From: Terriglobia bacterium
GTDB lineage: Bacteria > Acidobacteriota > Terriglobia > Terriglobales > Acidobacteriaceae
NCBI GenBank assembly: GCA_020073015.1
Contig: JAIQFZ010000052.1
Location: 1 to 33,705 of the forward strand
Direction of reading: 5' to 3'
Length of the DNA: 33,705 bases
In this document: positions 2,622-16,242 of the stretch, piece after piece
Position numbering within the stretch: position 1 is the stretch's first letter
Layout of the letters: every line of letters starts with the position of its first letter
Made by a program: the position numbers and the translations under genes
Notes under the pieces: model-generated
What the model was told of the DNA's origin: nothing
The model's database searches: none
The model's input: only the letters and a program-made list of their open reading frames with translations

Positions 2622-3092
2622 ATGTCGACACCTACACCTAAAGGTCAACAGATGGGCCCAAAAGCGCGCAACAGGTATCCCGCCCTCTGGGCGGCACTTG
2701 AAGGAGTCTCGACTCGAATCGCAGTTGCGAAAGGCAAGGTTCTGTTCCAGCAGGGAGAGGCGGGGCGCGGTGTGTTCCTGCTGCGCGAAGGGAAAGTAAG
2801 GCTGTCGCTGCATGCGGCTGGTCGTAAGAAGCTGCCCTACCGGATAGCTGGGCCAGGAAATATTCTGGGATTCCCAGCCACCATCTCCAATGCGCCTTAC
2901 AGCCTTACGGCCGAGAATCTAGCGGACTGCGAGCTCGGATTCGCCCCTGCTGAAGATGTAATTAATCTCCTCAGCAAGCGCAGCGATCTTTGCTTTCAGG
3001 CAGTGGAGATTATGGCCCACGAAGTGAAGAAACTACGAAAAAGGCAAGCAGCCCTCCTCTATCTTCCTGTCAACTCTGCCAAACAGCTCTAA
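2622..3092 (+). CDS. Stand-alone cyclic-nucleotide-binding-domain protein (Crp-like, no HTH)
   Basis: The 156-residue product contains the cNMP-binding beta-roll: 'KGKVLFQQGEAGRGVFLLREGKVRLSL' is the classic glycine-punctuated start, then 'GPGNILGFPATISNAPYSLTAENLADCEL' in the phosphate-cassette region. It ends with the long dimerisation helix ('AVEIMAHEVKKLRKRQAALLYLP'). Crp/Fnr regulators are usually 210-240 residues, with a winged helix after this point; here translation stops and no helix-turn-helix is visible in the next 150 bp in any frame. The usual phosphate-binding Arg-(Ser/Thr)-Ala is replaced by YSLTA, so cyclic nucleotide binding is uncertain. The start has a strong GGAGGGGG site. 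The protein lies just ahead of the kinase-activator pair, so it may act by protein contact or by heterodimerising with a full-length Crp elsewhere. Confidence 0.8.
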   Translation: MSTPTPKGQQMGPKARNRYPALWAALEGVSTRIAVAKGKVLFQQGEAGRGVFLLREGKVRLSLHAAGRKKLPYRIAGPGNILGFPATISNAPYSLTAENLADCELGFAPAEDVINLLSKRSDLCFQAVEIMAHEVKKLRKRQAALLYLPVNSAKQL

Positions 3093-3156
3093 TTTTAGCC
3101 GTAGAATGGGTCGCGGAACGCGATGCGGTCACGCCCGCGCGCCACAACCACTCCCT

Positions 3157-3172
3157 TGTGATGGGGATCACA
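3157..3172. promoter_or_regulatory. CRP-type operator TGTGAT-N4-ATCACA
   Basis: TGTGATGGGGATCACA is a perfect inverted repeat of 6-bp arms and fits the CRP consensus TGTGA-N6-TCACA at all ten defined bases. It is 78 bp upstream of the chosen ATG of the histidine kinase, a normal distance for an activator site. This placement argues that the kinase starts at 3250 and not at the earlier in-frame start at 3106, which would put the operator inside the coding region. Confidence 0.6.
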
Positions 3173-3249
3173 GCGAAGGGTTATTCGCCCGGATACGCTT
3201 TCAGCCATCAGGATGGGGGGATCTCAGACCGCCGCAGCGCGGTGGATCC

Positions 3250-4566
3250 ATGAGCGACGACTTTCCCGAGCGGCGGTGGTTTTGGGCCACGCTGGCGCTT
3301 TCGAGCATCAGCATTGTCGGATTTGTGTTCGCCGTCTGGGAACTGCTGGAATCCCGCTTCTTTCGAGACGTTGATTACCTCACCCTTCACTACCTGTACG
3401 TAAGTCGCGGGGTGGTTTCCTCTTTCCTGCTGGCGTTCTGGGCTGCCTGGTTCGTGTTACGGGAGCGCCGCACCAGCGAGCATCAACTGCGGCGGTCGCG
3501 GGCGCGCTACCGCGGAATTCTCAACTGCTCTCCCGCGGCCATTGCACTTTTCGATTCCGACCTCGTGGTCGCGGAGTGGAATGCCGCCGCTGAGGACCTG
3601 TACGGTTACAGCCGCGCTCAAGTGCTGGGGAGCAAGCTGCCCACCGTCCCCGCCGAAAAGCAAAGCGAAATGCAGACGTTTCTTGCGCAGGCCTTCCAGG
3701 GCAAGCCGGTGTTGGATGTCGAAACGCGCCGTTGCGCAAAGGATGGCGCTCTCATCGATGTGCAAACCAACGTGCTTCCCTACCAGGAAGAAGAGCCTGG
3801 CCGTTACTTTCTGGAGGTAAGCGTTGACATTCGAGAACGCATCCGTCTGCGGCAAACCTTACTGCAGGTCGAAAAACTGACCACCATGGGTCAGATGGCA
3901 GCAGGAACGGCGCACCACCTGAATACGCCGCTGGCCTCCATGCTTCTGCGCGTACAACTCGCCCGCAAGCATGCCCAGAACGCGAGCGTGGACGTCGATC
4001 TTGGTGATCTGGAGGGCAGCATCCGTTACTGCGAGCAGTTTGTTCGCCGGTTGTTGGACTTCAGCCGCCGCCCACAACTTACGCGGCGTGCGGAGGCCAT
4101 TAAGGACACGCTGGATTCGGTGTTGAGTTTCTTAAGTCCCCAACTGGTCGCGAAACAGATCCATCTGACGCTCGACATGGATCCGGCGAACGGGTCTGCG
4201 GTCATGGCGGATCGGAACCAGATTGAGGCTTTGTTCCTGATCCTTATCACGAACGCCTTGGATGCTGTTCAGCCCGAGGGGCATATTACCGTTCGCTGTC
4301 ACCCGGCCGACGATCGCATTCACGTCTCCATTGAAGACGACGGCTGCGGCATTGAACCAGTGAACTTGCCGCACATTTTTGAGCCGTTTTTCACGACCAA
4401 GCCAGTGGGCAAAGGCACGGGGTTGGGGCTGTCGATTGCCGCTACCATCTTGCAGGAACACGAAGGCTCCATCCGTATTGACAGCGTGCCGAACCAGGGA
4501 ACAGCGGTGCGAATCGAGTTGCCGCTCTCGCCGAAAGCAGCGGCACCGGAGAAGGTCCTGGTATGA
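3250..4566 (+). CDS. Membrane-bound PAS sensor histidine kinase
   Basis: The 438-residue product has two N-terminal membrane helices (about 12-33 and 55-75) around a short extracytoplasmic loop, a PAS domain (about 85-200, starting 'YRGILNCSPAAIALFDSD'), a phosphoacceptor segment 'GTAHHLNTPLAS' with His222, and a HATPase domain: N box LITNALDAV, G1 DDGCGI, F box FEPFFTTKP and G2 GKGTGLGLSI. The residue after the phosphoacceptor His is another His, where most kinases have Glu. Its stop overlaps the start of the response regulator (ATGA), so the two are surely co-translated and partner proteins. The ATG at 3250 is preferred: upstream residues look non-coding and contain a CRP-type palindrome. 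The signal is unknown; a membrane PAS kinase next to respiratory genes suggests redox or quinone status. Confidence 0.92.
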   Translation: MSDDFPERRWFWATLALSSISIVGFVFAVWELLESRFFRDVDYLTLHYLYVSRGVVSSFLLAFWAAWFVLRERRTSEHQLRRSRARYRGILNCSPAAIALFDSDLVVAEWNAAAEDLYGYSRAQVLGSKLPTVPAEKQSEMQTFLAQAFQGKPVLDVETRRCAKDGALIDVQTNVLPYQEEEPGRYFLEVSVDIRERIRLRQTLLQVEKLTTMGQMAAGTAHHLNTPLASMLLRVQLARKHAQNASVDVDLGDLEGSIRYCEQFVRRLLDFSRRPQLTRRAEAIKDTLDSVLSFLSPQLVAKQIHLTLDMDPANGSAVMADRNQIEALFLILITNALDAVQPEGHITVRCHPADDRIHVSIEDDGCGIEPVNLPHIFEPFFTTKPVGKGTGLGLSIAATILQEHEGSIRIDSVPNQGTAVRIELPLSPKAAAPEKVLV

Positions 4567-5942
4567 ACGAAGCGGACACAAAGTGCACGGTGCTGGTGGT
4601 GGACGACGATCCCAGCCTTACCCGGACGCTGAAGGAGTTCCTGGTGGAAGAAGGATACGAGGTCGAAACCGCCCATGATGGCGAACAAGCCCTGGCTGTC
4701 CAGCAGAGGAACCCCGGCATCTGTCTGGCGCTGTTGGATTTGATGATGCCCGCGACGGACGGAATTTCGCTGATGGAGCAGTTGCGGCGCCACAACCCCG
4801 ATCTGCCGGTGATGATCATGACCGGCTTTGGCACCATTGAAACTGCGGTCGAGGCAATCAAGCGCGGCGCCGAAGACTATCTGACCAAGCCGCTGGAACC
4901 CGATGCGGTGAAGAAGAAGGTAGGGCGGATCCTGGAGGTATTCCGGCTGCGAAACCGCGTCTCGCAACTGGAGAGCAATCTGCATCGCTACTGTCCCTCC
5001 TTCGACTCCCTCGTGTACGTGTCGCCGGTGATGCAGCGGGTCGTCGAGAAAGCGCGAGCGGCCGCGGAGTCCGATTCGCCGGTACTGGTATTAGGGGAGA
5101 CCGGCACCGGGAAGGAACTGCTGGCGCGCGCCATTCACGCTGCCAGTGGCCGGTCGGCAAACCAGTTTGTTCCGGTGAATTGTGCCGCGCTGCCGAGGGA
5201 ACTAGTCGAAAGCGAGCTGTTTGGCTATCGCCGCGGCGCCTTCACCGGCGCATTCGCCGACGGCGTCGGCATCTTTGCTTCCGCGGCGCGCGGGACAGTG
5301 TTCCTCGACGAGGTCGGCGAAATGCCGAAAGAAGTTCAGGCGAAGTTGTTGCGCGTGCTCCAGGATAAAGAGGTGCGGCCGGTGGGCGGTACGCGGGCGA
5401 TTCCCGTGGACGTGCGTATCATCGCCGCTACCAATCACACCAACGCCGAGCTTCGCAACGATCAGCTTCGCCAGGATTTCTATTTTCGAATCGCCACGGT
5501 CGTCATCGAGATCCCTCCCTTGCGCGCGCGGCCCGAGGATATTCTGGTGTTGTCTCAACACACGTTACAGAAGCTCGAACAACGCTATGAACGGCCGATC
5601 GCCCTCCAGCGTGGGGCCGTGGAATTGCTGTTGAAGTACGCGTTTCCGGGCAACGTCCGCGAACTGGAAAATCTGCTCGAAAGCCTGGCCGCGCTGTCGC
5701 ACGATGATCCGCAGACCATCACGGAAAAAGATCTGCGGCCGTTACTCGATCCGGCGGGACTGGCAGACCTGCCACCCGCCAAGGGTGTCGAGCAGACGGT
5801 GGCGATTGAATCGCTGGAGCGGATGGCAATCGAGCGGGCACTCCGGCTCGCTGAAGGGAACCGGAGCAAGGCCGCAGTCCTGCTGGGCATCTCTCGCGAC
5901 ACGCTTTATCGAAAGTTAAAGGAGTACCGTACGGAAACATAG
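4563..5942 (+). CDS. NtrC-family sigma-54-dependent response regulator
   Basis: The 459-residue protein has three domains. The receiver (1-120) has acidic residues Asp14-Asp15, phosphoacceptor Asp59 in LLDLMMP, Thr87 and Lys109. The AAA+ domain (about 145-380) has Walker A GETGTGKE, the sigma-54-contacting loop GAFTGA (225-230, intact) and Walker B VFLDEVGEM. The C-terminal Fis-type helix-turn-helix is 'ALRLAEGNRSKAAVLLGISRDTLYRKL'. All residues for phospho-activated ATPase and sigma-54 activation are present. It overlaps the kinase stop by 4 bp. Directly downstream, palindromes of the TGTCCGA type and -24/-12 promoters precede two transcription units, so this regulator most likely activates the neighbouring cytochrome/NrfD locus. 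Confidence 0.95.
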   Translation: MNEADTKCTVLVVDDDPSLTRTLKEFLVEEGYEVETAHDGEQALAVQQRNPGICLALLDLMMPATDGISLMEQLRRHNPDLPVMIMTGFGTIETAVEAIKRGAEDYLTKPLEPDAVKKKVGRILEVFRLRNRVSQLESNLHRYCPSFDSLVYVSPVMQRVVEKARAAAESDSPVLVLGETGTGKELLARAIHAASGRSANQFVPVNCAALPRELVESELFGYRRGAFTGAFADGVGIFASAARGTVFLDEVGEMPKEVQAKLLRVLQDKEVRPVGGTRAIPVDVRIIAATNHTNAELRNDQLRQDFYFRIATVVIEIPPLRARPEDILVLSQHTLQKLEQRYERPIALQRGAVELLLKYAFPGNVRELENLLESLAALSHDDPQTITEKDLRPLLDPAGLADLPPAKGVEQTVAIESLERMAIERALRLAEGNRSKAAVLLGISRDTLYRKLKEYRTET

Positions 5943-5955
5943 CCCGGGTCGGGAC

Positions 5956-5972
5956 TGTCCGATTTTCTGACA
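5956..5972. promoter_or_regulatory. Putative upstream activator site, TGTCCGA-N3-TCTGACA
   Basis: A 17-bp inverted repeat of 7-bp arms (TGTCCGA and TCTGACA, one mismatch) around TTT, 14 bp after the stop of the sigma-54 activator gene. The same element with perfect arms occurs at 7347-7363. It ends about 100 bp before a -24/-12 promoter, a normal enhancer distance for NtrC-type activators. Confidence 0.6.
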
Positions 5973-6071
5973 TGTACCGGGCATACGACAGTTCCGGTCA
6001 GCCGCTCTTCACCACCGCGAGCGCTAAATGCTGCCATGACCGGAGTTTCCAAATACGTTGCCCGCCAGCTG

Positions 6072-6087
6072 TGGCCAGGCGATTGCG
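6072..6087 (+). promoter_or_regulatory. Putative sigma-54 (-24/-12) promoter for the tetrahaem cytochrome
   Basis: TGGCCAGGCGATTGCG matches the sigma-54 consensus TGGCACG-N4-TTGCA at TGGC, G and TTGC, with the invariant GG-N10-GC spacing. Transcription would begin near 6098. That leaves a short leader holding the GGAG at 6101-6104 and the GTG start at 6112, and excludes an earlier in-frame start at 6058. Confidence 0.6.
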
Positions 6088-6095
6088 GACGTTTC

Positions 6096-6112
6096 CAGTC
6101 GGAGACCGACTG
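6096..6112 (+). promoter_or_regulatory. Hairpin covering the ribosome-binding site and start codon
   Basis: CAGTCGG (6096-6102) and CCGACTG (6106-6112) form a perfect 7-bp inverted repeat with a three-base loop. It includes the GGAG ribosome-binding site and reaches the first base of the GTG start, so it could limit translation. It may be only a chance palindrome. Confidence 0.35.
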
Positions 6113-7344
6113 TGTCCGCTAGCCAGGGTTCCGATGGGCGCGTGCCGCTGCATTTGATGGCCTGGACGTTTCTGGCTGCAGTCGCTGTTCTTGCCTTCAC
6201 CGGAGCCCTCGTCACCCAAGGCCGGCGATCGCGCGAACGCTGGTCCGTCTTTCTGGAGGGCAGCCCCCAACAAGGCAGCGTGGTGTTCCGCGACAAAGGT
6301 TGTGTTCGATGCCACGCGGTGAACGGCAAGGGCGGCAAAGTGGGGCCCGACCTTGGCCGCGGAAAACCCGCCCAATCGAGTCTGCCTCAGCTCGTCACGG
6401 CCATGTGGAATCACGCACCCCAGATGTGGGAACGCATGCGCGCCGACGGAGTTTCCTATCCCACTCTCAGTTACGACGACGTCGCCCAGTTGCTCGCCTA
6501 CCTTTCCATGTCCCGCCACGTGGATGATCCGGGTGATCCGGCCCGTGGGCACGAGCTCTTTGCAAGCAAAGGCTGCATCCGTTGCCATGCTGTGGGCGGC
6601 GTGGGTGGGAGAATTGGACCCGACCTGGCGGCAGCAAGTGATCTCACCGGGCCTATGGAATGGACCGAAGCCCTTTGGAACCACGCCTCGCGCATGCGTC
6701 TGGCCGTGGAGCGGGAAGGCATTCCATGGCCGCAATTTCAAGGTCATGAACTGCGGGATCTGTACGCGTTCGTGCGGCAGAACACCGCGCGCGGCTCGGT
6801 ACCGCACGGCGATCCCGCACGCGGATGGCAGATGTTTCAGCAGAAGTCCTGCACTGGATGTCACTCCATTCGCATGGCCGACCAGTTGGAGGGACCAAGC
6901 CTTGGACCAGAGCGCCAGCTGCCTGAGACCTTTACCGAACTGGGCGGCGTCATGGTCAGCCATTCTCCGCAAATGGAGCAGGCGATGACGCGCCAAGGCA
7001 TCGCGCGCCCGCAGCTGTCAGCGCAGGAGATGACCGATATTTTTGCGTTTCTCTACAGCCTGCGATACGTCGATCCCACAGGCTCGCCCCACGTCGGAGC
7101 CAGCGTGTTCATGTGGCGAGGTTGCAGCCGCTGTCATGGTGAAAACGCCGAAGGGACTGCGCGCGCGCCCACGCTCCGGGGACGTACTTACAATTCCATC
7201 AGTCTGGCGGTCGCGCTCTGGCACCACGGTCAGAAGATGTATGCACAAACTCGCCGCGTCGGCGTTGCCTGGCCCACCTTAGTTGAAAGCGATGTCGGCG
7301 ATTTGCTTGCCTTCCTGAATTCGCCCCCGAAAGAACAGCACTGA
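6112..7344 (+). CDS. Membrane-anchored tetrahaem cytochrome c (four tandem monohaem domains)
   Basis: The 410-residue product has one N-terminal membrane helix (about 14-36, 'LHLMAWTFLAAVAVLAF') and then a periplasmic part with four CxxCH haem sites: CVRCH (64), CIRCH (155), CTGCH (247) and CSRCH (338). They are spaced 91, 92 and 91 residues apart, so the protein is four tandem class I-like domains. Each ends with a related block, WNHAPQMW, WNHASRM, VSHSPQM or WHHGQKM, whose Met is the likely sixth haem ligand, then a terminal 'DLLAFL'-type helix. Start: GTG at 6112 has GGAG eight bases upstream and follows the predicted promoter. It may form an electron wire between the neighbouring quinol-interacting complex and an acceptor; that role is inferred. 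Confidence 0.9.
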   Translation: MSASQGSDGRVPLHLMAWTFLAAVAVLAFTGALVTQGRRSRERWSVFLEGSPQQGSVVFRDKGCVRCHAVNGKGGKVGPDLGRGKPAQSSLPQLVTAMWNHAPQMWERMRADGVSYPTLSYDDVAQLLAYLSMSRHVDDPGDPARGHELFASKGCIRCHAVGGVGGRIGPDLAAASDLTGPMEWTEALWNHASRMRLAVEREGIPWPQFQGHELRDLYAFVRQNTARGSVPHGDPARGWQMFQQKSCTGCHSIRMADQLEGPSLGPERQLPETFTELGGVMVSHSPQMEQAMTRQGIARPQLSAQEMTDIFAFLYSLRYVDPTGSPHVGASVFMWRGCSRCHGENAEGTARAPTLRGRTYNSISLAVALWHHGQKMYAQTRRVGVAWPTLVESDVGDLLAFLNSPPKEQH

Positions 7345-7345
7345 A

Positions 7346-7364
7346 GTGTCCGAGTATCGGACAC
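7346..7364. promoter_or_regulatory. Putative activator site, perfect palindrome GTGTCCGA-GTA-TCGGACAC, plus half-site
   Basis: The 8-bp arms are perfect and the spacer is 3 bp, the same architecture as the element at 5956-5972. A further half-site TGTCCGA lies at 7369-7375. The cluster begins immediately after the tetrahaem cytochrome stop and ends about 140-150 bp upstream of a -24/-12 promoter. A dyad plus a half-site is typical of enhancer sites for NtrC-type activators. A hairpin terminator is less likely because no T-tract follows. Confidence 0.65.
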
Positions 7365-7515
7365 AAACTGTCCGATCGCCTCCAGCGGTAGCGCCACCAT
7401 GATCTGTACAACCTTCCTCAAGTGGCCCAACCGCGCCCTGGCACCGTCATCTTCGGTCTGAGTTTGCAGGCAGTTAGCGCCGGTCCGGACGAAGGAGGCG
7501 TTCTTGGCATCGGAC

Positions 7516-7531
7516 TGGATTCCAGATTGCA
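7516..7531 (+). promoter_or_regulatory. Putative sigma-54 (-24/-12) promoter for the CuA-FeS-NrfD-cytochrome operon
   Basis: TGGATTCCAGATTGCA has the required GG-N10-GC spacing, a TGG -24 element and a perfect TTGCA -12 element; the CACG part of the -24 box is not matched. Transcription would begin near 7542, giving a leader of about 30 bases before the start at 7571. Confidence 0.5.
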
Positions 7532-7570: not shown

Positions 7571-7984
7571 TTGTTAAGAACTAATCGAATCTTGCTGCCA
7601 GTTCTGATTGTTTTCGTGCTCGGCATCCTATCCCAGCTCGCCATGGCTGGCGGTCCACCACGGCTGATCACGGTGATCGCCGACAAGGACAACCTGTTCA
7701 AAATCCAGGGCCAGAAGCTCCCGGTGATCACTTTGAAAGCCAATGAGGTGGTGCACCTGCGGATCACCGCCAACAAGAGCACCGAGTGGGACAAAGATGG
7801 CACCATCCATACCTTCACCGTCAATGCGCTCAAAGACCAGGGCTGGGACCTGCGCCTGAAGGAAGGCACGCAGGACTTCACGTTGGTGGCGCCCGCGGAG
7901 CCGGGCAGTTACGTGGTGGAGTGCACGGTCAAATGCGGCCAAGGCCACGACGACATGAAGATGAGGCTGGTCGTCATACCGTGA
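7571..7984 (+). CDS. Secreted CuA-type cupredoxin (cytochrome oxidase subunit II-like domain)
   Basis: The 137-residue product has a signal peptide or N-terminal anchor (about 6-26, ending AMAGG) and a single cupredoxin domain. The ligands of a binuclear CuA centre are visible: His80 in 'DGTIHTF', then Cys118-x3-Cys122-x3-His126-x2-Met129 ('ECTVKCGQGHDDM'). The glutamate between the two cysteines in oxidase subunit II is Val here; that residue binds through its backbone, so a CuA site remains plausible. CuA domains normally belong to terminal oxidases or N2O reductase, but no such catalytic subunit is in the window. The TTG start has AAGGAG about ten bases upstream. First gene of a tight operon (28 bp to the next); probably an electron acceptor or carrier for the complex. 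Confidence 0.85.
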   Translation: MLRTNRILLPVLIVFVLGILSQLAMAGGPPRLITVIADKDNLFKIQGQKLPVITLKANEVVHLRITANKSTEWDKDGTIHTFTVNALKDQGWDLRLKEGTQDFTLVAPAEPGSYVVECTVKCGQGHDDMKMRLVVIP

Positions 7985-8012: not shown

Positions 8013-8855
8013 ATGGCATTAACGCGGCGTGGTTTCGTGCAGTTTTTGGCACGTGGGACAGGGGCCGTCGTGGCGGTGGGAGTGGCCTGGACGGCGAGTG
8101 TCTCGAAGGTATTCCGCGAGGTGCTTCCTTCCCGGTCGGTTGCTCCCGGTAACCAGAAATGGGTCATGGTCATTGACCTGGCCAAGTGCGACGGCTGCCG
8201 GGACTGCACCAAGGCCTGCACCGCGATGCACTTCGTCCCACCCATGCAGGAGTGGATCAAGGTTTTTGAAATCGCCGATAACGAGGCGGCCGGGCCTTAC
8301 TTTCTGCCCCGTCCCTGCATGCAGTGCGACAACCCGCCGTGCGTGCGCGGCTGCCCCGTGGGCGCCACTTACAAACGCACCGACGGCATTGTCATCCAGG
8401 ACGACGATCGCTGCATCGGCTGCCGCAACTGCATCGCTCAATGTCCTTATTCCGCGCGCTCGTTCAACTGGGGAGAGCCGCCCCACACCGCGGAAGAGAT
8501 GGCCCGTCCATACAACGTGGAATACAACTACCCGCACCGCAAAGGCACCGTGGAAAAGTGCATCTTCTGCCCCGAGCACCTCCGGGCGGGCAAACTTCCC
8601 GCCTGTGCCGCGACCTGCAAGATGGGTGCGATTTACTTCGGAGACAAGTTTGAAGACGCAGTGACCAACGGCAAAGGCGAGACCATCCAGTTCACCAAGA
8701 TCGCCAAGCGTGGAGCCAGTTTTCGGCTGATGGAAGAACTGGGAACGGAACCAAGCGTTTACTATCTGCCTCCCGCCAGCCGCAAGTACCCGGCTCCGGA
8801 CGAGAAGGCGCAAATCGAAGCGGCCCATACCGACATGGCGGGAATGGCGCACTGA
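8013..8855 (+). CDS. Tat-exported 4x[4Fe-4S] ferredoxin subunit (NrfC/ActB-C-terminal-like)
   Basis: The 280-residue product begins with a twin-arginine-type signal (TRRGFVQFL followed by a hydrophobic stretch to about residue 30). It then has 16 cysteines in four clusters: C59/62/65/69, C102/105/110/114, C134/137/140/144 and C183/186/198/202. This is the DmsB/NrfC/PsrB ferredoxin family, which relays electrons between an NrfD-type quinol site and a periplasmic partner. The next gene is such an NrfD protein, 9 bp downstream. No molybdopterin catalytic subunit accompanies it. The start has GGAG nine bases upstream. Confidence 0.93.
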   Translation: MALTRRGFVQFLARGTGAVVAVGVAWTASVSKVFREVLPSRSVAPGNQKWVMVIDLAKCDGCRDCTKACTAMHFVPPMQEWIKVFEIADNEAAGPYFLPRPCMQCDNPPCVRGCPVGATYKRTDGIVIQDDDRCIGCRNCIAQCPYSARSFNWGEPPHTAEEMARPYNVEYNYPHRKGTVEKCIFCPEHLRAGKLPACAATCKMGAIYFGDKFEDAVTNGKGETIQFTKIAKRGASFRLMEELGTEPSVYYLPPASRKYPAPDEKAQIEAAHTDMAGMAH

Positions 8856-8864
8856 GAGGTGAGC

Positions 8865-10991
8865 ATGGAAGCTCGTGAGCAGAACCTCTTGCGTTCTGTG
8901 CTGGAAAACACCTGGCGGTTCTATGTCTGGGTGGGATTCCTGATCGTCATACTCTTGTGGGGACTCTACGCCTACATCCATCAATTGCGGGACGGGCTCA
9001 TCGTCACGGGCATGCGCGACCAGATCTCCTGGGGACTGTACATTACCAATTTCGTTTTCTTCATCGGCATCAGCCACGCTGGCACGCTGATCTCGGCCAT
9101 CCTGCGCGTCACCGATACCGAATGGCGGACGCCGATCACGCGCATGGCTGAGGCCATCACCGTGTTTGCCCTCTGCATCGGCGGCCCCATGGTCATGATT
9201 GACATGGGACGGCCCGACCGCATGCTGAACCTGTTCCGCTACGGCCGTATCCAGTCGCCCATCATCTGGGATGTGCTGGGCGTGAGCACCTACCTGACCG
9301 GATGCATCCTGTATTTCTACATCCCCATGATTCCGGACTTGGCGTTCCTGGCCGTGCAGCCCCGGCTCGCTTCCTGGCGCCGCCGCCTCTACAGTACGCT
9401 GGCCATCGGCTGGACCGGAACCCCGCAGCAGAAGGCATTACTGGAGAAAGCCATTTCCTTCATGGCCATCTTCATCATCCCGCTGGCGGTCTCCGTTCAC
9501 ACCGTGGTCTCGTGGATCTTCGCCATGACCCTGCGCCCGGGATGGAACAGCAGCATCTTTGGTCCCTATTTTGTGATCGGAGCCATCTACTCCGGAACGG
9601 CGGGCGTGATCTTCTCCATGTACGTGCTGCGGCGCGTCTTCCACCTGCACGACTATGTCGAAGAGTTGCACTTCCGCAAACTGGGCCTGCTCCTGCTGGC
9701 CTTCTCGCTCATGTACCTGTACTTCAATATCAATGAATACCTGACCGCGGGCTACAAGTTAGAGGGAAGTGAACGCCTGCTGATGCAACGGCTCTTCGTC
9801 GGTGACTATGCCGTGTTGTTCTGGGTCGCGCAGAGCCTGTGCGTGTTCATTCCGGCCGCCCTCATGATCGCCGTGCTCGGTATCAAGCGCTATCACCGCT
9901 ACACCATCCCCGGCGTGGTGCTCTCTTCGGCACTGGTGATTGTGGGCGCCTGGGCCAAGCGCTATATCATCGTTGTTCCCACCCTCCGCAGCCCCTATCT
10001 GCCCTCGGGACAGAGATTGCCTTGGGAGTGGACTCACTACCATCCCACCTGGGTGGAGTGGTCCATCACCGGGGCCGCGGTTGCAGGCTTTGCCCTGATT
10101 TACACCTTGATGGCCAAGCTGTTCCCCATCGTCTCGATCTGGGAGACGCGCGAGCAGAGAGAGAAGGTTGCCGTGTCCGAACTACCCGACGAGTTTGTGC
10201 CTTCGCGCTGGTGGAAACCAGGGACCGTGGTTCCAATCCTGGCCGTGGCGGCGCTTTTGTTGTACGGCAGATCCGCGAACGCCGCCGGCCCAGCCAAGCC
10301 TAAACTACCGAAGCCAACCGCAATTACTGTGGAATGGAAAACCGTCCCGGCGGCGCAAGCAATCCGCGAATCTGTTCCCGATGAGAGTACGCCTCTGCTT
10401 CCGCGCGCCCGCGTCTTCCTGTACACGGGCGGGCTTTTCAGTCTGCAAATGCCCCACGACGGCTCCACTGAAGACGACTTGAAACCGTCGCCGGCGGTGG
10501 CCGTCACGGCCACCTTGCGGGATTCCAGCGGCGCGCCCATCAGCTTCAAGCCGATGGAGTTCTCGGCCAAGACCGGACTCGGCACTCTGGCCTTCGGCAG
10601 CCGTCCCACCCTGGCGGATGGCAAAGCGCAACTGGTCATCAAGGACCGGCGCTACGGCATCTATCCCGTACAGGTCGTCTTCCACGGCGACGAGGAGTAT
10701 GCTCCTGCAACCTTCGATGTCGCCGTCGATTTCGGCGCCCGGCCGGCACCTGCACTGCCAAAAATCGGTGTGTTGATCACTCCCTACGCCACTCCGACCA
10801 TTGCCGTTCCTTTCCTGGCGTTCTACGGCGCGATGTGGGTGGCGTTTATCTACGCTTTTGGATACTTGATCTTGTGGAAAATGCGCGGGTTCCCCCGCGC
10901 CGCGGATCCAGTTTCCAGCAAGACACCGTCGGCCGCATCCCGGTTGCCTAGCGTGCACCAGGGCTTCCAGTCCAATTTTCCATCCAAGTGA
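8865..10991 (+). CDS. NrfD/ActC-family quinol-interacting membrane protein with C-terminal Ig-like domain
   Basis: The 708-residue product has two parts. Residues 1 to about 440 are a polytopic NrfD-type protein of about ten helices. It carries the 'GISHAGTLISAILR' and 'WRTPITRMAEA' segments and the 'SPIIWDVLGVSTYL...IPDLA' pattern that I associate with ActC of Alternative Complex III. After a cytoplasmic-looking linker and a helix (VVPILAVAALLLYG, about 447-460) comes a ~150-residue hydrophilic, beta-rich region ('VAVTATLRDSSGAPISF', 'GKAQLVIKDRRYGIYPVQVVFHGDEEYAPATF') resembling a bacterial Ig-like domain, then a final helix (about 640-665). Ordinary NrfD proteins are 300-450 residues, so this is a fusion. 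ATG 8865 has GAGAGG just upstream; GTG 8859 is possible. It should exchange electrons with quinol via the preceding ferredoxin. Confidence 0.9.
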   Translation: MEAREQNLLRSVLENTWRFYVWVGFLIVILLWGLYAYIHQLRDGLIVTGMRDQISWGLYITNFVFFIGISHAGTLISAILRVTDTEWRTPITRMAEAITVFALCIGGPMVMIDMGRPDRMLNLFRYGRIQSPIIWDVLGVSTYLTGCILYFYIPMIPDLAFLAVQPRLASWRRRLYSTLAIGWTGTPQQKALLEKAISFMAIFIIPLAVSVHTVVSWIFAMTLRPGWNSSIFGPYFVIGAIYSGTAGVIFSMYVLRRVFHLHDYVEELHFRKLGLLLLAFSLMYLYFNINEYLTAGYKLEGSERLLMQRLFVGDYAVLFWVAQSLCVFIPAALMIAVLGIKRYHRYTIPGVVLSSALVIVGAWAKRYIIVVPTLRSPYLPSGQRLPWEWTHYHPTWVEWSITGAAVAGFALIYTLMAKLFPIVSIWETREQREKVAVSELPDEFVPSRWWKPGTVVPILAVAALLLYGRSANAAGPAKPKLPKPTAITVEWKTVPAAQAIRESVPDESTPLLPRARVFLYTGGLFSLQMPHDGSTEDDLKPSPAVAVTATLRDSSGAPISFKPMEFSAKTGLGTLAFGSRPTLADGKAQLVIKDRRYGIYPVQVVFHGDEEYAPATFDVAVDFGARPAPALPKIGVLITPYATPTIAVPFLAFYGAMWVAFIYAFGYLILWKMRGFPRAADPVSSKTPSAASRLPSVHQGFQSNFPSK

Positions 10992-10999
10992 GGGATACC

Positions 11000-12025
11000 A
11001 TGAACCGGTTCTGTGCTGCTTTCGGATTCGCCGCAACCCTGGCGGTAACTGGGTTACTGGTTTCGGCTTCGGCTCAAAACATCCAACCCACCAGGGAACA
11101 AGGGACTGCGCAGCAGTTCGCAAAGATTTCAGTCTCGGAAGTGAAAGCGGTTGACTATCCCATTCCCTCCGCCCAAGGGCCAAGCTGGCTGAAACATCTC
11201 GGGCTCGCAGTCTCACAAACTCGGATGGGGCAGGTGGGAGGAACCGACTCTCTTCCGGCCAGCACGCATGGCCAGCAGCAACCTACCACCGGAACTCCCA
11301 CGCCAACTGGCAACTTGAACTCGAGCATTCAGAGATTCCTCGCGACCTTTCACTCTGGCTCGAAACCGGCTTCAGAAATCTTGGACGAAAAATTCGTTGT
11401 GGCCGGATCTGATCTTTACCGCTGGAATTGCCAAGGGTGTCATGGCCCCACTGGTCAAGGGGCAACGCCGGAAATCAACTCGGTGCTGGGCCCGGTGCAG
11501 GGAACTTCCCCAGCGCTGACACGAAAGCGCATGGAGGCGAGAGGTCTCGATGTGGATGATGACATGGTGCAGCAAGTGAGCGAACTGGCGGAGGGCTCCC
11601 TGCGAGACCGGCTGCAGCATGGTGGAAAGAGCATGCCGTCGTTCGAATATTTGCGAGCCGATGAAGTGGAGGCTTTGTTCGGATATCTGGAGAAGCTGGC
11701 CGAGGTCCCGCCTACAAAACGCGACGGCCTGCTTGTACCCGAATCCGCGGCTCGCGTCGGCGAGCACATCGTGAGGGGGACCTGCCACATCTGTCACGAC
11801 GCTACCGGCCCAGGAAGCGGGCATATGGCCATGATGCAAGGGACCATTCCGTCACTGGCCAGCATCCCCAAGGAGCACTCTCTCAGCGGCGTCGTTCACC
11901 AGGTGCAATATGGCTCCAGCGGCATGATGAAAATCACGGGAGGCGAGGTGATGCCCGCCTACCCGTATTTCACGGAGGAAGAAATCGCGGCAGTATACCT
12001 TGTCGCATACTCGGCTCGGCCATAA
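11000..12025 (+). CDS. Secreted dihaem cytochrome c
   Basis: The 341-residue product has a signal peptide (1 to about 26, ending VSASA-Q), about 110 residues with no recognised fold, and two cytochrome c domains. The first has CQGCH at 144 and likely Met ligand in 'GKSMPSF'; the second has CHICH at 262 and Met in 'GEVMPAYPYFTEEE'. It is the last gene of the CuA-ferredoxin-NrfD operon, 8 bp after NrfD. This is the position of the small cytochrome in Alternative Complex III-like clusters, so it probably accepts electrons from the complex. ATG 11000 is preferred over GTG 10988 because the signal peptide starts there. Confidence 0.9.
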   Translation: MNRFCAAFGFAATLAVTGLLVSASAQNIQPTREQGTAQQFAKISVSEVKAVDYPIPSAQGPSWLKHLGLAVSQTRMGQVGGTDSLPASTHGQQQPTTGTPTPTGNLNSSIQRFLATFHSGSKPASEILDEKFVVAGSDLYRWNCQGCHGPTGQGATPEINSVLGPVQGTSPALTRKRMEARGLDVDDDMVQQVSELAEGSLRDRLQHGGKSMPSFEYLRADEVEALFGYLEKLAEVPPTKRDGLLVPESAARVGEHIVRGTCHICHDATGPGSGHMAMMQGTIPSLASIPKEHSLSGVVHQVQYGSSGMMKITGGEVMPAYPYFTEEEIAAVYLVAYSARP

Positions 12026-12234: not shown

Positions 12235-13203
12235 CTATATCTGTCCCCGGCGCGGTCGCCAGCGGTCGCCAGCAATCAGACTGCGCACGGTGTCGACTAA
12301 CTCTGCTTCTCGATCCGGTTTGGTGAAGCTCGTCGACAGGTGCGGCGCGGGTTTGCCGAGGCGGGAGTAAACGGCTAGCCCCAGGGGGTTATACGGCAGC
12401 ACTGACAGGGTGCTCGCTCCCAGGTCGTAGAGACGGTTTACAACTCGACTCAAATTCATGCGCGTATCGGTTATGTCGGGGATGAGCGGAACGCGAGGCC
12501 GGACCTCGACTCGCCCCGCCCTCCGCGGCTCAGCCAGCAACCTGCGGAGATTCTCCAGGATTTTTTCATTGGACTGACCCAGGTAGCGTCTGCTTTCGTC
12601 GGCGCCCATCAGTTTCAGGTCGAAGAAGATGAGATCCAAAAATGGCAGGATCTTTTTCGCGAAGACCTCGTAGTCGAACCACCCCGAGGTTTCAATCGCA
12701 ACGTGGACGCCGAGCGCTTTGAGTTTTAGCAACAGAGTTTCAACGTATTCGGGAAAAAGCGTGCACTCGCCACCCGACAGAGTCACGCCGCCACCGGAAT
12801 GGCGGTAGAAGGACACATCACGCAGCAGTAACTCAACCAGGCTATCCACCGGCCAATACTTGCCGACGATGCGCAGCGCGCTGGTTGGGCAAGCATCCTC
12901 GCACGCGCCGCAAAGATCACACCGGTCCCGGCCGATGCGTGTGGGCGAAGAGAGGTCAAGGGCAGCCTGCGGACACGCCTTCACGCAACTCCCGCAGTGA
13001 ATGCACCTCTCTTCGGTAAAGGCAATTTCAGGGCAGATTTCTTGCGTCTCAGGGCTATGGCAGAACACGCAACGCAGTGGGCAGCCCTTGAAAAAGACCA
13101 CCGACCGAATGCCGGGTCCGTCATCGAGACTGCCGCGCCGAATGTCGACGATCAGCGGCCGGCGAGATTCGCGCGGCTTGGTGCGAGCAACTGCAATGGG
13201 CAT
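12235..13203 (-). CDS. Glycyl radical enzyme activating enzyme (radical SAM, PflA family)
   Basis: The 322-residue product has the radical SAM cluster motif GCPLRCVFCH (Cys41, Cys45, Cys48). It is followed by an inserted pair of ferredoxin clusters (C67/70/73/77 and C95/98/101/105) that is typical of activases for eliminase and decarboxylase GREs but absent from PflA itself. The SAM-binding 'GGVTLSGGE' loop and a C-terminal barrel are present. It installs the glycyl radical on the GRE two genes upstream. The frame is open back to 13365, inside the neighbouring gene, but ATG 13203 has GAGGTGG upstream and begins family-like sequence. Last gene of the minus-strand operon; the 209 bp beyond it, up to the convergent cytochrome gene, show no clear terminator. 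Confidence 0.93.
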   Translation of the reverse strand: MPIAVARTKPRESRRPLIVDIRRGSLDDGPGIRSVVFFKGCPLRCVFCHSPETQEICPEIAFTEERCIHCGSCVKACPQAALDLSSPTRIGRDRCDLCGACEDACPTSALRIVGKYWPVDSLVELLLRDVSFYRHSGGGVTLSGGECTLFPEYVETLLLKLKALGVHVAIETSGWFDYEVFAKKILPFLDLIFFDLKLMGADESRRYLGQSNEKILENLRRLLAEPRRAGRVEVRPRVPLIPDITDTRMNLSRVVNRLYDLGASTLSVLPYNPLGLAVYSRLGKPAPHLSTSFTKPDREAELVDTVRSLIAGDRWRPRRGQI

Positions 13204-13223
13204 CGCCACCTCGCTACCTCGAT

Positions 13224-13706
13224 CTACGCAACGCCCAGGCGGCGCGTCAGGTCTTTGGCCAGAAAGCCGAACCGGTACAAATAGTTCAAGTTGCCGTCCA
13301 CATCCACCGTGTTCGCCAGGATCGAGTCCAGAATGTCCTGGTTTTCCGACAACAGGAACGACCACAGCGCGTGCACGTCCTGAAAAGAGACTCGAACGTT
13401 GTAGGTGTAACGCGCCTGATGTTCTACGCTCATATGCCCGTCCTCGAAGACGGCGGTGGTGGACACCTTGTTATCGAGCGTCCGGAACACGCAAATGCCG
13501 CAGAAACCGTCGATGTTGCGCCGGTAACTGCCCGACAGCAGGAAAGCCCAATCCATTCCCCGCAGCAAGGCTTCCAAGAAATCGTCGGTCATCTTTTCAC
13601 ACAGCTCGGCTTTGAGTTGCCGGGCTAGCCGGCCCACGAGAAAGTTCTGGAATGGCTCCGGAAAGGCTCGGGACGCTAGCTGCAACGCGGATCGTCTAGT
13701 TGTCAT
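13224..13706 (-). CDS. SCP2-like small protein in GRE operon
   Basis: The 160-residue product has no signal peptide or membrane segment. An N-terminal helical half (with 'FLEALLRGMDWAFLLSGSYRRN') precedes an alternating beta pattern, 'GICVFRTLDNKV...AVFEDGHMSVEHQARYTYNVRVSFQDVHALWSFL', and a final 'DVDGNLNYLYRFGFLAKDL'. The order of strands, the DG turn, and the late 'V-x-G-N-x-x-Y/L' strand followed by a helix resemble sterol-carrier-protein-2 domains, but I assign this from pattern only. Its ATG overlaps the GRE stop by 11 bases (ATGACAACTAG), so translation is coupled. Such coupling suggests a partner: a substrate-binding, lipid-binding or assembly protein. Confidence 0.7.
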   Translation of the reverse strand: MTTRRSALQLASRAFPEPFQNFLVGRLARQLKAELCEKMTDDFLEALLRGMDWAFLLSGSYRRNIDGFCGICVFRTLDNKVSTTAVFEDGHMSVEHQARYTYNVRVSFQDVHALWSFLLSENQDILDSILANTVDVDGNLNYLYRFGFLAKDLTRRLGVA

Positions 13707-16242
13707 GGTCGGCTCCTTTCGTCAGCGCAAACGGTTCGTAGGGAACGGCGTCGCCGCTGGACAGCCGGTATTCGGTGCGATCAATGATCTCTTTCTGCAT
13801 CTGAGGATTGAGGTCTTTGAAATACGCGGTGTAGCCGGAGACTCTCACCAGCAATTGATCGTAGCGACTCGGATCTTTCACTGCCTCGATGAAGTCTCGG
13901 TGCGAAGTCACATTGAACTGGATCTCCATTCCACCGGTCCCGTGATCGGCGGACGCGTCAAAATATCCGGCAACCGCGGCTGTAAAGTTGTCCAGCATGC
14001 GCGTGCGGTCACCATCGTCGGGAGTGAACTTCAGGTTCACCGCCATTCCATTCGATATGCATTCCGCCGGCAAGTTGGCCACCGCGTGCAGGGCAGCGGT
14101 CATGTGCGGCGTCACGCCCGAGCAGGGTGTCAGTCCACTGGAGAAGTTCTCGCCGTCCTTGCGGCCGTTCGGGGTGGCGCCGATGAAGCGGCCAAAGCCG
14201 GCGTGGTTGGTCATCGACCAGTAGCCCACACGGTAGTAGCCACCGCGATAATTGCGCCGGGTGTGCGTTGCTTCGTGCAAAACCTCGGTCAGCCAGATTG
14301 CGTTCTTCTCCCCGTTGACTTCGTCGGCCCCGAAGCGCGGCACTTTCTCCGGATTCCGCACGCGCGCCAGGAGTGCTTCGTAGCCCTCGTAGTTTTTGGC
14401 AATTGCGCGGAACAGAGTGTTATCGGATGGCTGTTGACCGTACACCAATTTCTCGATGACGTTTAGCGAATCAACCACATCGGCAAACCCTATGATCGCA
14501 ATCCCTGACGCATTGAGGGTGGCGCCACCTTCAATCAGATCTTTGCCGCTTTCCATTGGACCTTCAAACAATGCGGAGAGAATGGGCGTGGGGTAGAACT
14601 GTTGGTGAATGCGTCCGAACAACTCGTTCAGGGCGATGGCTTGGTCGAGCACCCAGTGCAGTTGCAGGTTGAAGGCTCCCTGGAACTCCGCAAAGGACTG
14701 AAACGTGTAAGGGTCGCCGGTCTCCATGCTGATGACGTTGTCCAACCCGAAATGCCGATGCCTCCCGTTGAACAGAGTGAGTTCCAACGCCGAGGGCAGG
14801 TTCAGCAGGATTGCTCCGGAGTGGCCATAGAAACGGCCGTTGCTGCCCGGCTCGACGCACCCGATCACTCCATAGTCGCGGGCTTGAGCCACTGTGTGTC
14901 CGCTGGCGGTCAGGGCGCGAATGACGGCACGGTCGTTATGCAGCGCCGGTGTCGCCCCGGTATTCACATTGGCTTCGCACAGCCGGCGCAGGTAGTCTTT
15001 GCCATTTACGCCCGGATAATAGCGCGCATTCAGGTTGGGATCGCGCAGTTTCATCAACTCGATCGCCCGTAACATGACATAGGTTAGTTCGTTGACCGCA
15101 TTGTGGCCTTCGCTGTCCACTCCGCCAATGGTGATAGCCTGGTTCGAACCGGTTCCGCCGAAAAGCTGCTCGCCGGCGGCCGGCACCATGGGAACGTGGT
15201 CACCGATCTTGAGCCAGACATAGCCGAGCAGCTGTACGGCATCCTCCACGGTCATGCGCCCAGCGTCGATGTCCCTGCGATAGAGATCGTAGAGAACCTG
15301 GTCGAGGCGTCCCAGGCTCAGGCCGACATTCGGATTCTCCAGGTGAATCGCGGTCCAGCAGAGCCAGATGGTCGTCAATCCTTCACGGAACGTCCGCGCT
15401 GGCTGCTCGGGGACGCGGCCATAGATCTTTGCGATCTCTGTCAGGTGAGCTTTCTGCTTCGCATCCGTCGCCCGCGTGGCCATACCCGCTGCTGCATCGG
15501 CCAGGTTGTGAGCGTAGGCGATGATGCCCTCCAGCACCTCGGCCATCGCTTGATAAAAGTCCTGTTGGCGCTGGTCCGTAGAGCGCTCCTGTCGCTCCAG
15601 TGCATCATTAATAACCGCGCGCAGGCCTTCGCGCACCGCCCGGGAAAAGTCCGGGATGGTGTGCGAAATGCAATTGGGCTTGCTGGCCAGGAAGAACACG
15701 AACTTCTGGAGAAGCTGCATCCGCCGCCGGTCTTCCTCGGTGCCGCGCGCTCGTGCCAACTCAGTGATGTTGTGATCCATCCAGAACGGGAAGACCTCAA
15801 GATTCAGTGCCTGAATCTCCTCTTCACTGATGTAGTACGGATTGCTCTGCCGGCGCGACATCGTCCACAACTCCGGCCACAGCGCGAGCGCCATGAACTC
15901 CGGATAGATCGGCACTCCCTTGAACTTGGACGTCGTCGACCCGGCAAAGGGCGAACTGTCGTCGAAAGAGAACTCTTCCAGACCAGTGGCGGTTCGCTTA
16001 TGCCCCTGCTTGTGCCACACAACGGGAGTCCGGTGTTGCAGTACTCTTCTGTAGAGGCGTGCCTTCTCCAGTACGGTAATCCGCTCGCGCTCGAATAAAC
16101 CCGCTTCGACGCTGAATTTGGTGATCAGCCGCGGGCGCTCGACGCAGACCTCCGGGATAGCCTGAAAATAGGCCTCGCGGAGGGCCCGGAGTGCGGGGGC
16201 AAGTTTCACTTCTTGTAGCGGGACCTCTTGGGTGGCAATCAT
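13696..16242 (-). CDS. Glycyl radical enzyme, GCVEP (eliminase/decarboxylase) type, substrate unknown
   Basis: The 848-residue protein is a full-length pyruvate-formate-lyase-like GRE. The C-terminal radical loop is RVSGYTAYF with Gly803. The thiyl-radical loop 'GVIGCVEPG' has Cys462 and Glu464. A single Cys followed by Val-Glu-Pro is found in dehydratases, choline trimethylamine-lyase, hydroxyproline dehydratase and arylacetate decarboxylases, and excludes pyruvate formate-lyase, which has two adjacent cysteines. Family hallmarks 'FGGTGSNQAITIGGVD' and 'GATPNGRKDGE' are present. Exact substrate cannot be read. A phenylacetate decarboxylase (PhdB) GRE is known from an acidobacterium, so an aromatic acid is one candidate. 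No microcompartment shell genes are nearby. The start has AGGAGG at good spacing. Confidence 0.93.
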   Translation of the reverse strand: MIATQEVPLQEVKLAPALRALREAYFQAIPEVCVERPRLITKFSVEAGLFERERITVLEKARLYRRVLQHRTPVVWHKQGHKRTATGLEEFSFDDSSPFAGSTTSKFKGVPIYPEFMALALWPELWTMSRRQSNPYYISEEEIQALNLEVFPFWMDHNITELARARGTEEDRRRMQLLQKFVFFLASKPNCISHTIPDFSRAVREGLRAVINDALERQERSTDQRQQDFYQAMAEVLEGIIAYAHNLADAAAGMATRATDAKQKAHLTEIAKIYGRVPEQPARTFREGLTTIWLCWTAIHLENPNVGLSLGRLDQVLYDLYRRDIDAGRMTVEDAVQLLGYVWLKIGDHVPMVPAAGEQLFGGTGSNQAITIGGVDSEGHNAVNELTYVMLRAIELMKLRDPNLNARYYPGVNGKDYLRRLCEANVNTGATPALHNDRAVIRALTASGHTVAQARDYGVIGCVEPGSNGRFYGHSGAILLNLPSALELTLFNGRHRHFGLDNVISMETGDPYTFQSFAEFQGAFNLQLHWVLDQAIALNELFGRIHQQFYPTPILSALFEGPMESGKDLIEGGATLNASGIAIIGFADVVDSLNVIEKLVYGQQPSDNTLFRAIAKNYEGYEALLARVRNPEKVPRFGADEVNGEKNAIWLTEVLHEATHTRRNYRGGYYRVGYWSMTNHAGFGRFIGATPNGRKDGENFSSGLTPCSGVTPHMTAALHAVANLPAECISNGMAVNLKFTPDDGDRTRMLDNFTAAVAGYFDASADHGTGGMEIQFNVTSHRDFIEAVKDPSRYDQLLVRVSGYTAYFKDLNPQMQKEIIDRTEYRLSSGDAVPYEPFALTKGADHDN

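Follow-up and report, generated by a model that had tools for sequence, protein, structure and literature searches.

Predicted enhancer dyads of an NtrC-type regulator at an acidobacterial respiratory locus

Introduction

A cytochrome locus in the genome of a Terriglobia bacterium holds two palindromes of the form TGTCCGA-N3-TCGGACA directly downstream of a gene for an NtrC-type activator, which raises the question of which protein reads them and what they control. An initial annotation of the window (the whole stretch of DNA that was analysed, 33,705 nucleotides) took them to mark the probable regulon of the adjacent sigma-54 activator. The comparison described below supports that reading, in which binding is predicted. 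In particular, the dyads appear to be enhancer sites by which the adjacent regulator would activate both respiratory units of the locus via sigma-54, and we assign this reading a probability of about 0.87.

Organization of the locus

Seven genes occupy the plus strand between positions 3106 and 12025, from a histidine kinase gene to that of a cytochrome with two CXXCH motifs (Pfam, translation). The first (3106-4566, plus strand) encodes a sensor histidine kinase with PAS, HisKA and HATPase_c domains, as seen with Pfam and in tblastn comparison with relatives; its hydrophobic stretches, judged by eye, suggest that it is membrane-bound. Because most close relatives align only from approximately residue 36, the kinase probably starts near 3247 and not at 3106. 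The second gene (4563-5942, plus strand) encodes an NtrC-type response regulator that consists of a receiver, a sigma-54 AAA+ domain and a Fis-type HTH (Pfam, translation, alignment).

Predicted enhancer dyad 1 (5956-5972) begins 14 bp past the regulator stop. Direct reading gave TGTCCGATTTTCTGACA, one mismatch away from a perfect dyad, and the site is kept in relatives. It is followed, about 108 bp from its centre, by a predicted sigma-54 -24/-12 element, TGGCCAGGCGATTGCG (6072-6087, plus strand), located by alignment and a core search. The next gene, cytA (6112-7344, plus strand), encodes a c-type cytochrome with four CXXCH motifs (Pfam, alignment, CXXCH count). Its open frame extends back to 6058, ahead of the predicted promoter, and its probable start is the GTG at 6112 behind a conserved GGAG.

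Predicted enhancer dyad 2 lies between cytA and the cupredoxin gene. Its core, TGTCCGAGTATCGGACA (7347-7363), is perfect, and one extra pair extends the dyad to 7346-7364 (direct reading, alignment). The additional half-site that had been reported, TGTCCGA at 7369-7375 on the plus strand, was likewise read directly; it lies 22 bp after the first half-site and is identical in four aligned genomes. A second predicted sigma-54 -24/-12 element, TGGATTCCAGATTGCA (7516-7531, plus strand), was found by the same two approaches; the centre of dyad 2 lies about 161 bp before it.

Downstream of this element, four genes follow on the plus strand. The first (7571-7984) encodes a CuA-like cupredoxin (CX3CX3HX2M) that has no Pfam match and reaches only 25.6 bits with CoxB (cut-off 147.7); besides this weak match, the assignment draws on conservation of the pattern, which is complete in 12 of 15 aligned sequences and deviates in L056, L130a and L131. 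Profile matches relate the second product (8013-8855), a 4Fe-4S protein, to DsrO/QrcC and the third (8859-10991), an NrfD-type membrane protein, to DsrP. The latter carries a C-terminal Ig-like extension, whose match to Big_1 is under its cut-off. The fourth gene, cytB (10988-12025), encodes the c-type cytochrome with two CXXCH motifs (Pfam, CXXCH count). The operon product is likely a quinone-to-cytochrome electron-transfer complex. As in DsrMKJOP and Qrc, the Fe-S protein is nearest to DsrO and the membrane protein to DsrP. Unlike in those systems, all matches are below cut-off, the NCBIfam equivalog scores being 183.5 bits for DsrO (cut-off 200) and 123.6 bits for DsrP (cut-off 350), and a CuA-like protein and an Ig-like extension are added. 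Other Dsr subunits were not found among the locus proteins scanned with Pfam and NCBIfam.

A gene for a protein with a cNMP-binding domain (2622-3092) directly precedes the kinase gene; the protein has no DNA-binding domain match, and no counterpart was matched in L048 or L049. On the other side, the cytochrome operon is adjoined on the minus strand (12235-16242) by genes for a PFL-like glycyl radical enzyme and a radical-SAM/ferredoxin protein, which is probably its activase. The nearest named relatives carry the labels Solibacter, Terriglobia, Acidobacteria and Bryobacterales.

The regulator

The annotation of the protein encoded directly before dyad 1 as an NtrC-type activator with an intact GAFTGA loop proved correct. 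Response_reg, Sigma54_activat and HTH_8 all exceed their Pfam cut-offs, and the phosphoacceptor D59 is invariant in six aligned sequences; a distant relative, in L052, has GSFTGA in place of GAFTGA. The recognition helix reads SRDTLYRKL (translation, alignment). Pfam matched a DNA-binding domain in the regulator and in none of the other seven proteins encoded between 2622 and 12025, and RpoN is encoded in the genome (PF04552, 205.2 bits).

The regulator scores 359.4 bits against the NCBIfam ntrC equivalog TIGR01818, too low for membership (cut-off 558.6), and its best NCBIfam match, AtoC, is also under its cut-off (375.3 against 714 bits). According to the part of PMC8743547 available to us, the E. 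coli NtrC (NR-I) box is TGCACCAnnnTGGTGCA, that is, TGCACCA-N3-TGGTGCA in a 7-3-7 layout. The system described here resembles NtrC, as presented there, in its REC/AAA+/Fis-HTH architecture, its 17-bp 7-3-7 site and the position of its sites upstream of sigma-54 promoters; it differs in the word TGTCCGA, in its respiratory targets and in the low score on the ntrC profile.

Rarity and conservation of the dyads

A genome-wide search for TGTCCGA-N3-TCGGACA had been proposed as a check against random occurrence. Only two copies with 0-1 mismatch were found in the 5.5-Mb genome, both at this locus and hence not a random scatter, and the reversed control gave none. Counts at looser thresholds say less. 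In the window, two matches were found at up to three mismatches where 1.85 were expected, so that this count is uninformative; in the genome, 25 sites with up to two mismatches compare with 12 for the reversed control, a twofold excess. Of the 23 two-mismatch sites among them, only four had a TGG-N9-TGC core up to 260 bp away in either direction, so that a promoter link was not seen, and 18 are spanned by stop-free frames of at least 200 codons (frames, not shown as genes). No targets outside the locus were found at these 23 sites, surveyed with flanks of at most 1.5 kb.

In the genome itself (G000) and in G008, G010 and G189, which share 95%, 95% and 88% regulator identity with the window, all eight dyads with 0-1 mismatch belong to this locus, two per genome. 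Across 32 genomes there are 22 such sites, 13 of which lie on the contig of the regulator and within 5 kb of it. The evidence lies in the position of the sites and not in their number, because the reversed control yields 111 sites over the 32 genomes, or 26 when three genomes rich in it are set aside, and thus outnumbers the dyads. In these three genomes, G157, G259 and G392, the control palindrome ACAGGCT-N3-AGCCTGT (at most one mismatch) occurs in 61, 13 and 11 copies, as if it were a dispersed repeat or the site of another factor in that family.

When four genomes (the window, L048, L049 and L090) were aligned, conserved islands in the variable DNA coincided with the dyads, with the third half-site and with the cores downstream of them. 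The promoter blocks conserved in this alignment are TGGCNARGCGATTGC and CTGG-N10-GC. In seven loci, the window among them, the first site is accompanied by another half-site or dyad at a distance of 17-22 bp.

Association with a regulator subfamily

The search for relatives of the regulator covered 61 near genomes, 399 genomes of the class and 396 of the phylum (overlapping sets that include the genome itself). At E 1e-108 or better, 38 regulator places, including that of the window, were examined; two are cut by a contig end, and the 36 that offered 497 bases or more around the activator stop were scored. The initial annotation had named orthologous activators without the motif beside their targets as an outcome that would speak against it. 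Of the 36 relatives, 23 have a dyad with up to three mismatches between -150 and +500 bp relative to the activator stop (19 at up to two mismatches), and these 23 span nine families (f1, f6, f7, f10, f12, f20, f37, f59 and f75). The same interval holds no dyad in any of 40 paralogous NtrC-type genes, none was found at six further paralogue loci, and first-order shuffles contained one in 29 of 720 cases at up to three mismatches and in three of 720 at up to two.

The 13 relatives without a near dyad are of several kinds. In L096-L099, a dyad lies further downstream, behind a cytochrome gene; the recognition helix is altered in L108-L110, and SRE replaces SRD in L111; L114 and L115 probably do not hold orthologues of the regulator. 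L104, L117 and L118 are exceptions: they have an SRD helix yet lack a dyad nearby.

Sigma-54 promoter cores downstream of the dyads

TGG-N9-TGC is the heart of the sigma-54 consensus. Its occurrence was scored around 35 hand-picked related dyads from 28 loci, which include three variant-word sites and one site with four mismatches; most tandem pairs are represented by their first site only, the L050 pair upstream of a kinase gene and the named loci were left out, and the TGG-N9-TGC form was adopted after a first promoter list had been seen. Within 250 bp downstream, 30 of the 35 dyads have such a core, against one on the reverse strand, one upstream and 3.65 expected from shuffles; a core was present in 14.7% of 250-base stretches drawn at random from the same loci. 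At a fixed distance of 40-200 bp downstream, the count is 27 of 35, against one on the reverse strand, none upstream and 2.4 expected. With the pattern fixed, a held-out check of six dyads (L122, L127 twice, L128, L131 twice) found a core in the expected direction for five, the exception being the dyad behind the regulator in L127. The looser GG-N10-GC, which had been proposed as the promoter criterion, does not discriminate because the DNA is GC-rich: it is found downstream of all 35 dyads, on the reverse strand of 23 and upstream of 31, with 21.9 expected. A graded sigma-54 score was also tried and set aside; it separated the sites only partially, 11 of the 35 reaching at least 4, compared with 7.8% of shuffles and 5.4% of random stretches.

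The initial annotation noted that NtrC-family activators bind such dyads 100-200 bp upstream of the promoter; in the window, the predicted cores lie 108 and 161 bp downstream of the dyads. These distances bear on whether the dyads might serve repression or a mixed circuit in which the sigma-54 promoters are weak or idle. Sequence does not reveal the direction of regulation, and TGGATTC, the -24 portion of the second core, matches the consensus TGGCACG poorly; nevertheless, dyads placed 108 and 161 bp ahead of a core fit activation at a distance and not occlusion, and the GAFTGA loop is intact. We regard a repressive or mixed role as very unlikely and activation as the better reading.

The site follows the target gene

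Dyads also occur at respiratory genes other than those behind the regulator. L127 and L131 each have an additional dyad upstream of the cytochrome gene that precedes the kinase gene, and a perfect dyad is placed likewise in L128; a TGG-N9-TGC core faces the cytochrome gene in each case, and another lies on the opposite side. These sites (L127:6208, L128:2197 and L131:9845) are situated between divergent genes and flanked by cores in both directions, an arrangement in which a single enhancer might serve two sigma-54 promoters. G370 has a perfect dyad whose start is 138 bp upstream of a Rieske-type frame, itself followed by a cytochrome b-type frame (both under NCBIfam cut-offs), and TGGCTGTCCACTTGCC lies 99 bp away. 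Since the dyads of L127, L128, L131 and G370 precede respiratory genes, the site, as far as sequence comparison can tell, tracks the target promoter and not the gene of the activator.

The same four loci weigh on the suggestion that the palindromes act as terminators of transcription, or form RNA hairpins, at the ends of the regulator and cytochrome genes. Both dyads of the window do lie just past a stop codon, a hairpin is possible, and one terminator-like prediction (5945-5961) overlaps dyad 1. However, such predictions are no more frequent than in shuffles (one found, 1.7 expected), dyad 2 has no T run, and the dyads of L127, L128, L131 and G370 precede a promoter-like core and a gene with no activator stop before them. 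The terminator reading was rejected, and we give it next to no weight beside the enhancer reading.

The regulator type is linked to other gene sets as well. In L100, it precedes several cytochromes as well as a molybdopterin protein that is Qrc-like (332 bits, cut-off 440), a further likeness to Qrc, and in L121, a more distant relative, it precedes cytochrome b and c genes. L055:5-6632 (G056) carries the NrfD-type gene in three tandem copies. In L050:14598-14633 (G026), two dyad-like sites 19 bp apart lie upstream of the kinase gene, where self-regulation is possible.

Nine sites with 0-1 mismatch lie away from the regulator in relatives, and seven were examined (G193:C3 and G566:C42 were left out). 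At L244:1501-1517 (G417), a one-mismatch dyad is found 84 bp before a frame for the small subunit of a [NiFe] hydrogenase, with no TGG-N9-TGC core. The L252 dyad has a core 191 bp away on the reverse strand, beyond which lies an unidentified frame, and the dyads of L241, L243, L249, L253 and L254 have no core. A survey of 79 named loci gave single dyads (up to two mismatches) also at L160, L174, L175 and L198, all without the regulator; three of them have a core on one side.

Recognition helix and DNA word

SRD stands at the helix start of every regulator in the set that has a TGTCCGA-type site and a readable helix. The regulators of L108, L109 and L110 have SRG, and no TGTCCGA dyad is present there; L109 and L110 carry TGTTCAA/TGTGCAA-type dyads and L108 only a weak one. 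Among the 40 paralogues, the helix is readable in 23, none of which has SRD. No new SRG case was found in 95 genomes of that order. The covariation of helix and word is suggestive of direct recognition, in a small number of cases, the SRG shift comprising three loci.

This covariation has to be weighed against the possibility that the dyads bind another factor, encoded elsewhere, and that the NtrC-type regulator uses other sites. Binding of the regulator to the dyad is a prediction. A similar dyad, TGTCCGACATCCGGACA (L175:8987-9003, a Desulfobacterales contig), lies near a DsrO-like gene and 157 bp past the stop codon of another sigma-54 activator, which is of a membrane type and has the helix SRS, not SRD. 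TGT and ACA half-sites are, moreover, common to several Desulfovibrio activators, as far as the available part of PMC4641369 goes. Against another factor stands the distribution of the dyad, which accompanies the regulator subfamily in nine families, is missing beside all 40 paralogues and, at up to two mismatches, is absent from all seven acidobacterial cupredoxin/Fe-S/NrfD loci without the regulator in their flank (L123, L124, L126, L129, L132, L133 and L137; the L123 flank gave one weak kinase match, 25%). The position of the dyad upstream of sigma-54 cores and the change of its word where the recognition helix changes also argue for the regulator. We therefore consider a different binding factor unlikely and retain the adjacent regulator as the probable reader of the dyads.

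The available part of PMC4641369 describes most regulons of the Desulfovibrio sigma-54 regulome as comprising one to four operons and frequently adjoining the activator gene, with motifs whose TGT and ACA half-sites are 9, 11 or 12 bp apart and with one three-half-site operator. The present system, with its small regulon beside the activator, TGT/ACA half-sites and three-half-site operator, is similar to this description; it differs in that it belongs to another phylum and has other regulators. TGTC is absent from the main text of that paper, whose motif logos are figures and lie outside that text search.

Proposed mechanism and implications

The sites, their conservation and their link to the regulator subfamily and to oriented sigma-54 cores are direct observations, and from dyad conservation, the oriented cores and the covariation of helix and word, the kinase-regulator pair probably drives two sigma-54 promoters. 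In the mechanism that we propose, the PAS kinase would phosphorylate the regulator, a phosphorylated dimer of which would bind TGTCCGA-N3-TCGGACA; at site 2, the third half-site, about two helical turns away, may assist binding. The bound regulator would then assemble an AAA+ ring and remodel the sigma-54 polymerase waiting at 6072-6087 and 7516-7531. The predicted outcome is activation of the four-haem cytochrome unit and of the operon for the CuA cupredoxin, the Fe-S protein, the NrfD-type protein and the di-haem cytochrome.

The type of switch is classical, and the regulator and its DNA word have, as far as we found, not been described previously: no description of the regulator, the word or the complex was found among the matches listed in openly licensed PubMed Central texts, figures aside. 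A match to the TGTCCGA motif in a sigma-54 paper, PMC10162802, is in the part available a primer and not an operator.

More tentatively, and with slightly less than even confidence, a dedicated Acidobacteriota regulator-enhancer pair may travel as a module and control different quinone- or cytochrome-linked complexes according to lineage: the CuA/NrfD complex here, and elsewhere a Qrc-like molybdopterin complex, a Rieske/cytochrome b pair and perhaps an uptake hydrogenase, with a word that would have shifted when Asp in the helix became Gly. If real, this shift would provide a natural variant pair for how Fis-type HTH domains read DNA. The locus offers a testable operator and promoter map for an acidobacterial respiratory switch, and the dyad may serve as a sequence tag for seeking targets of the regulator in metagenomes.
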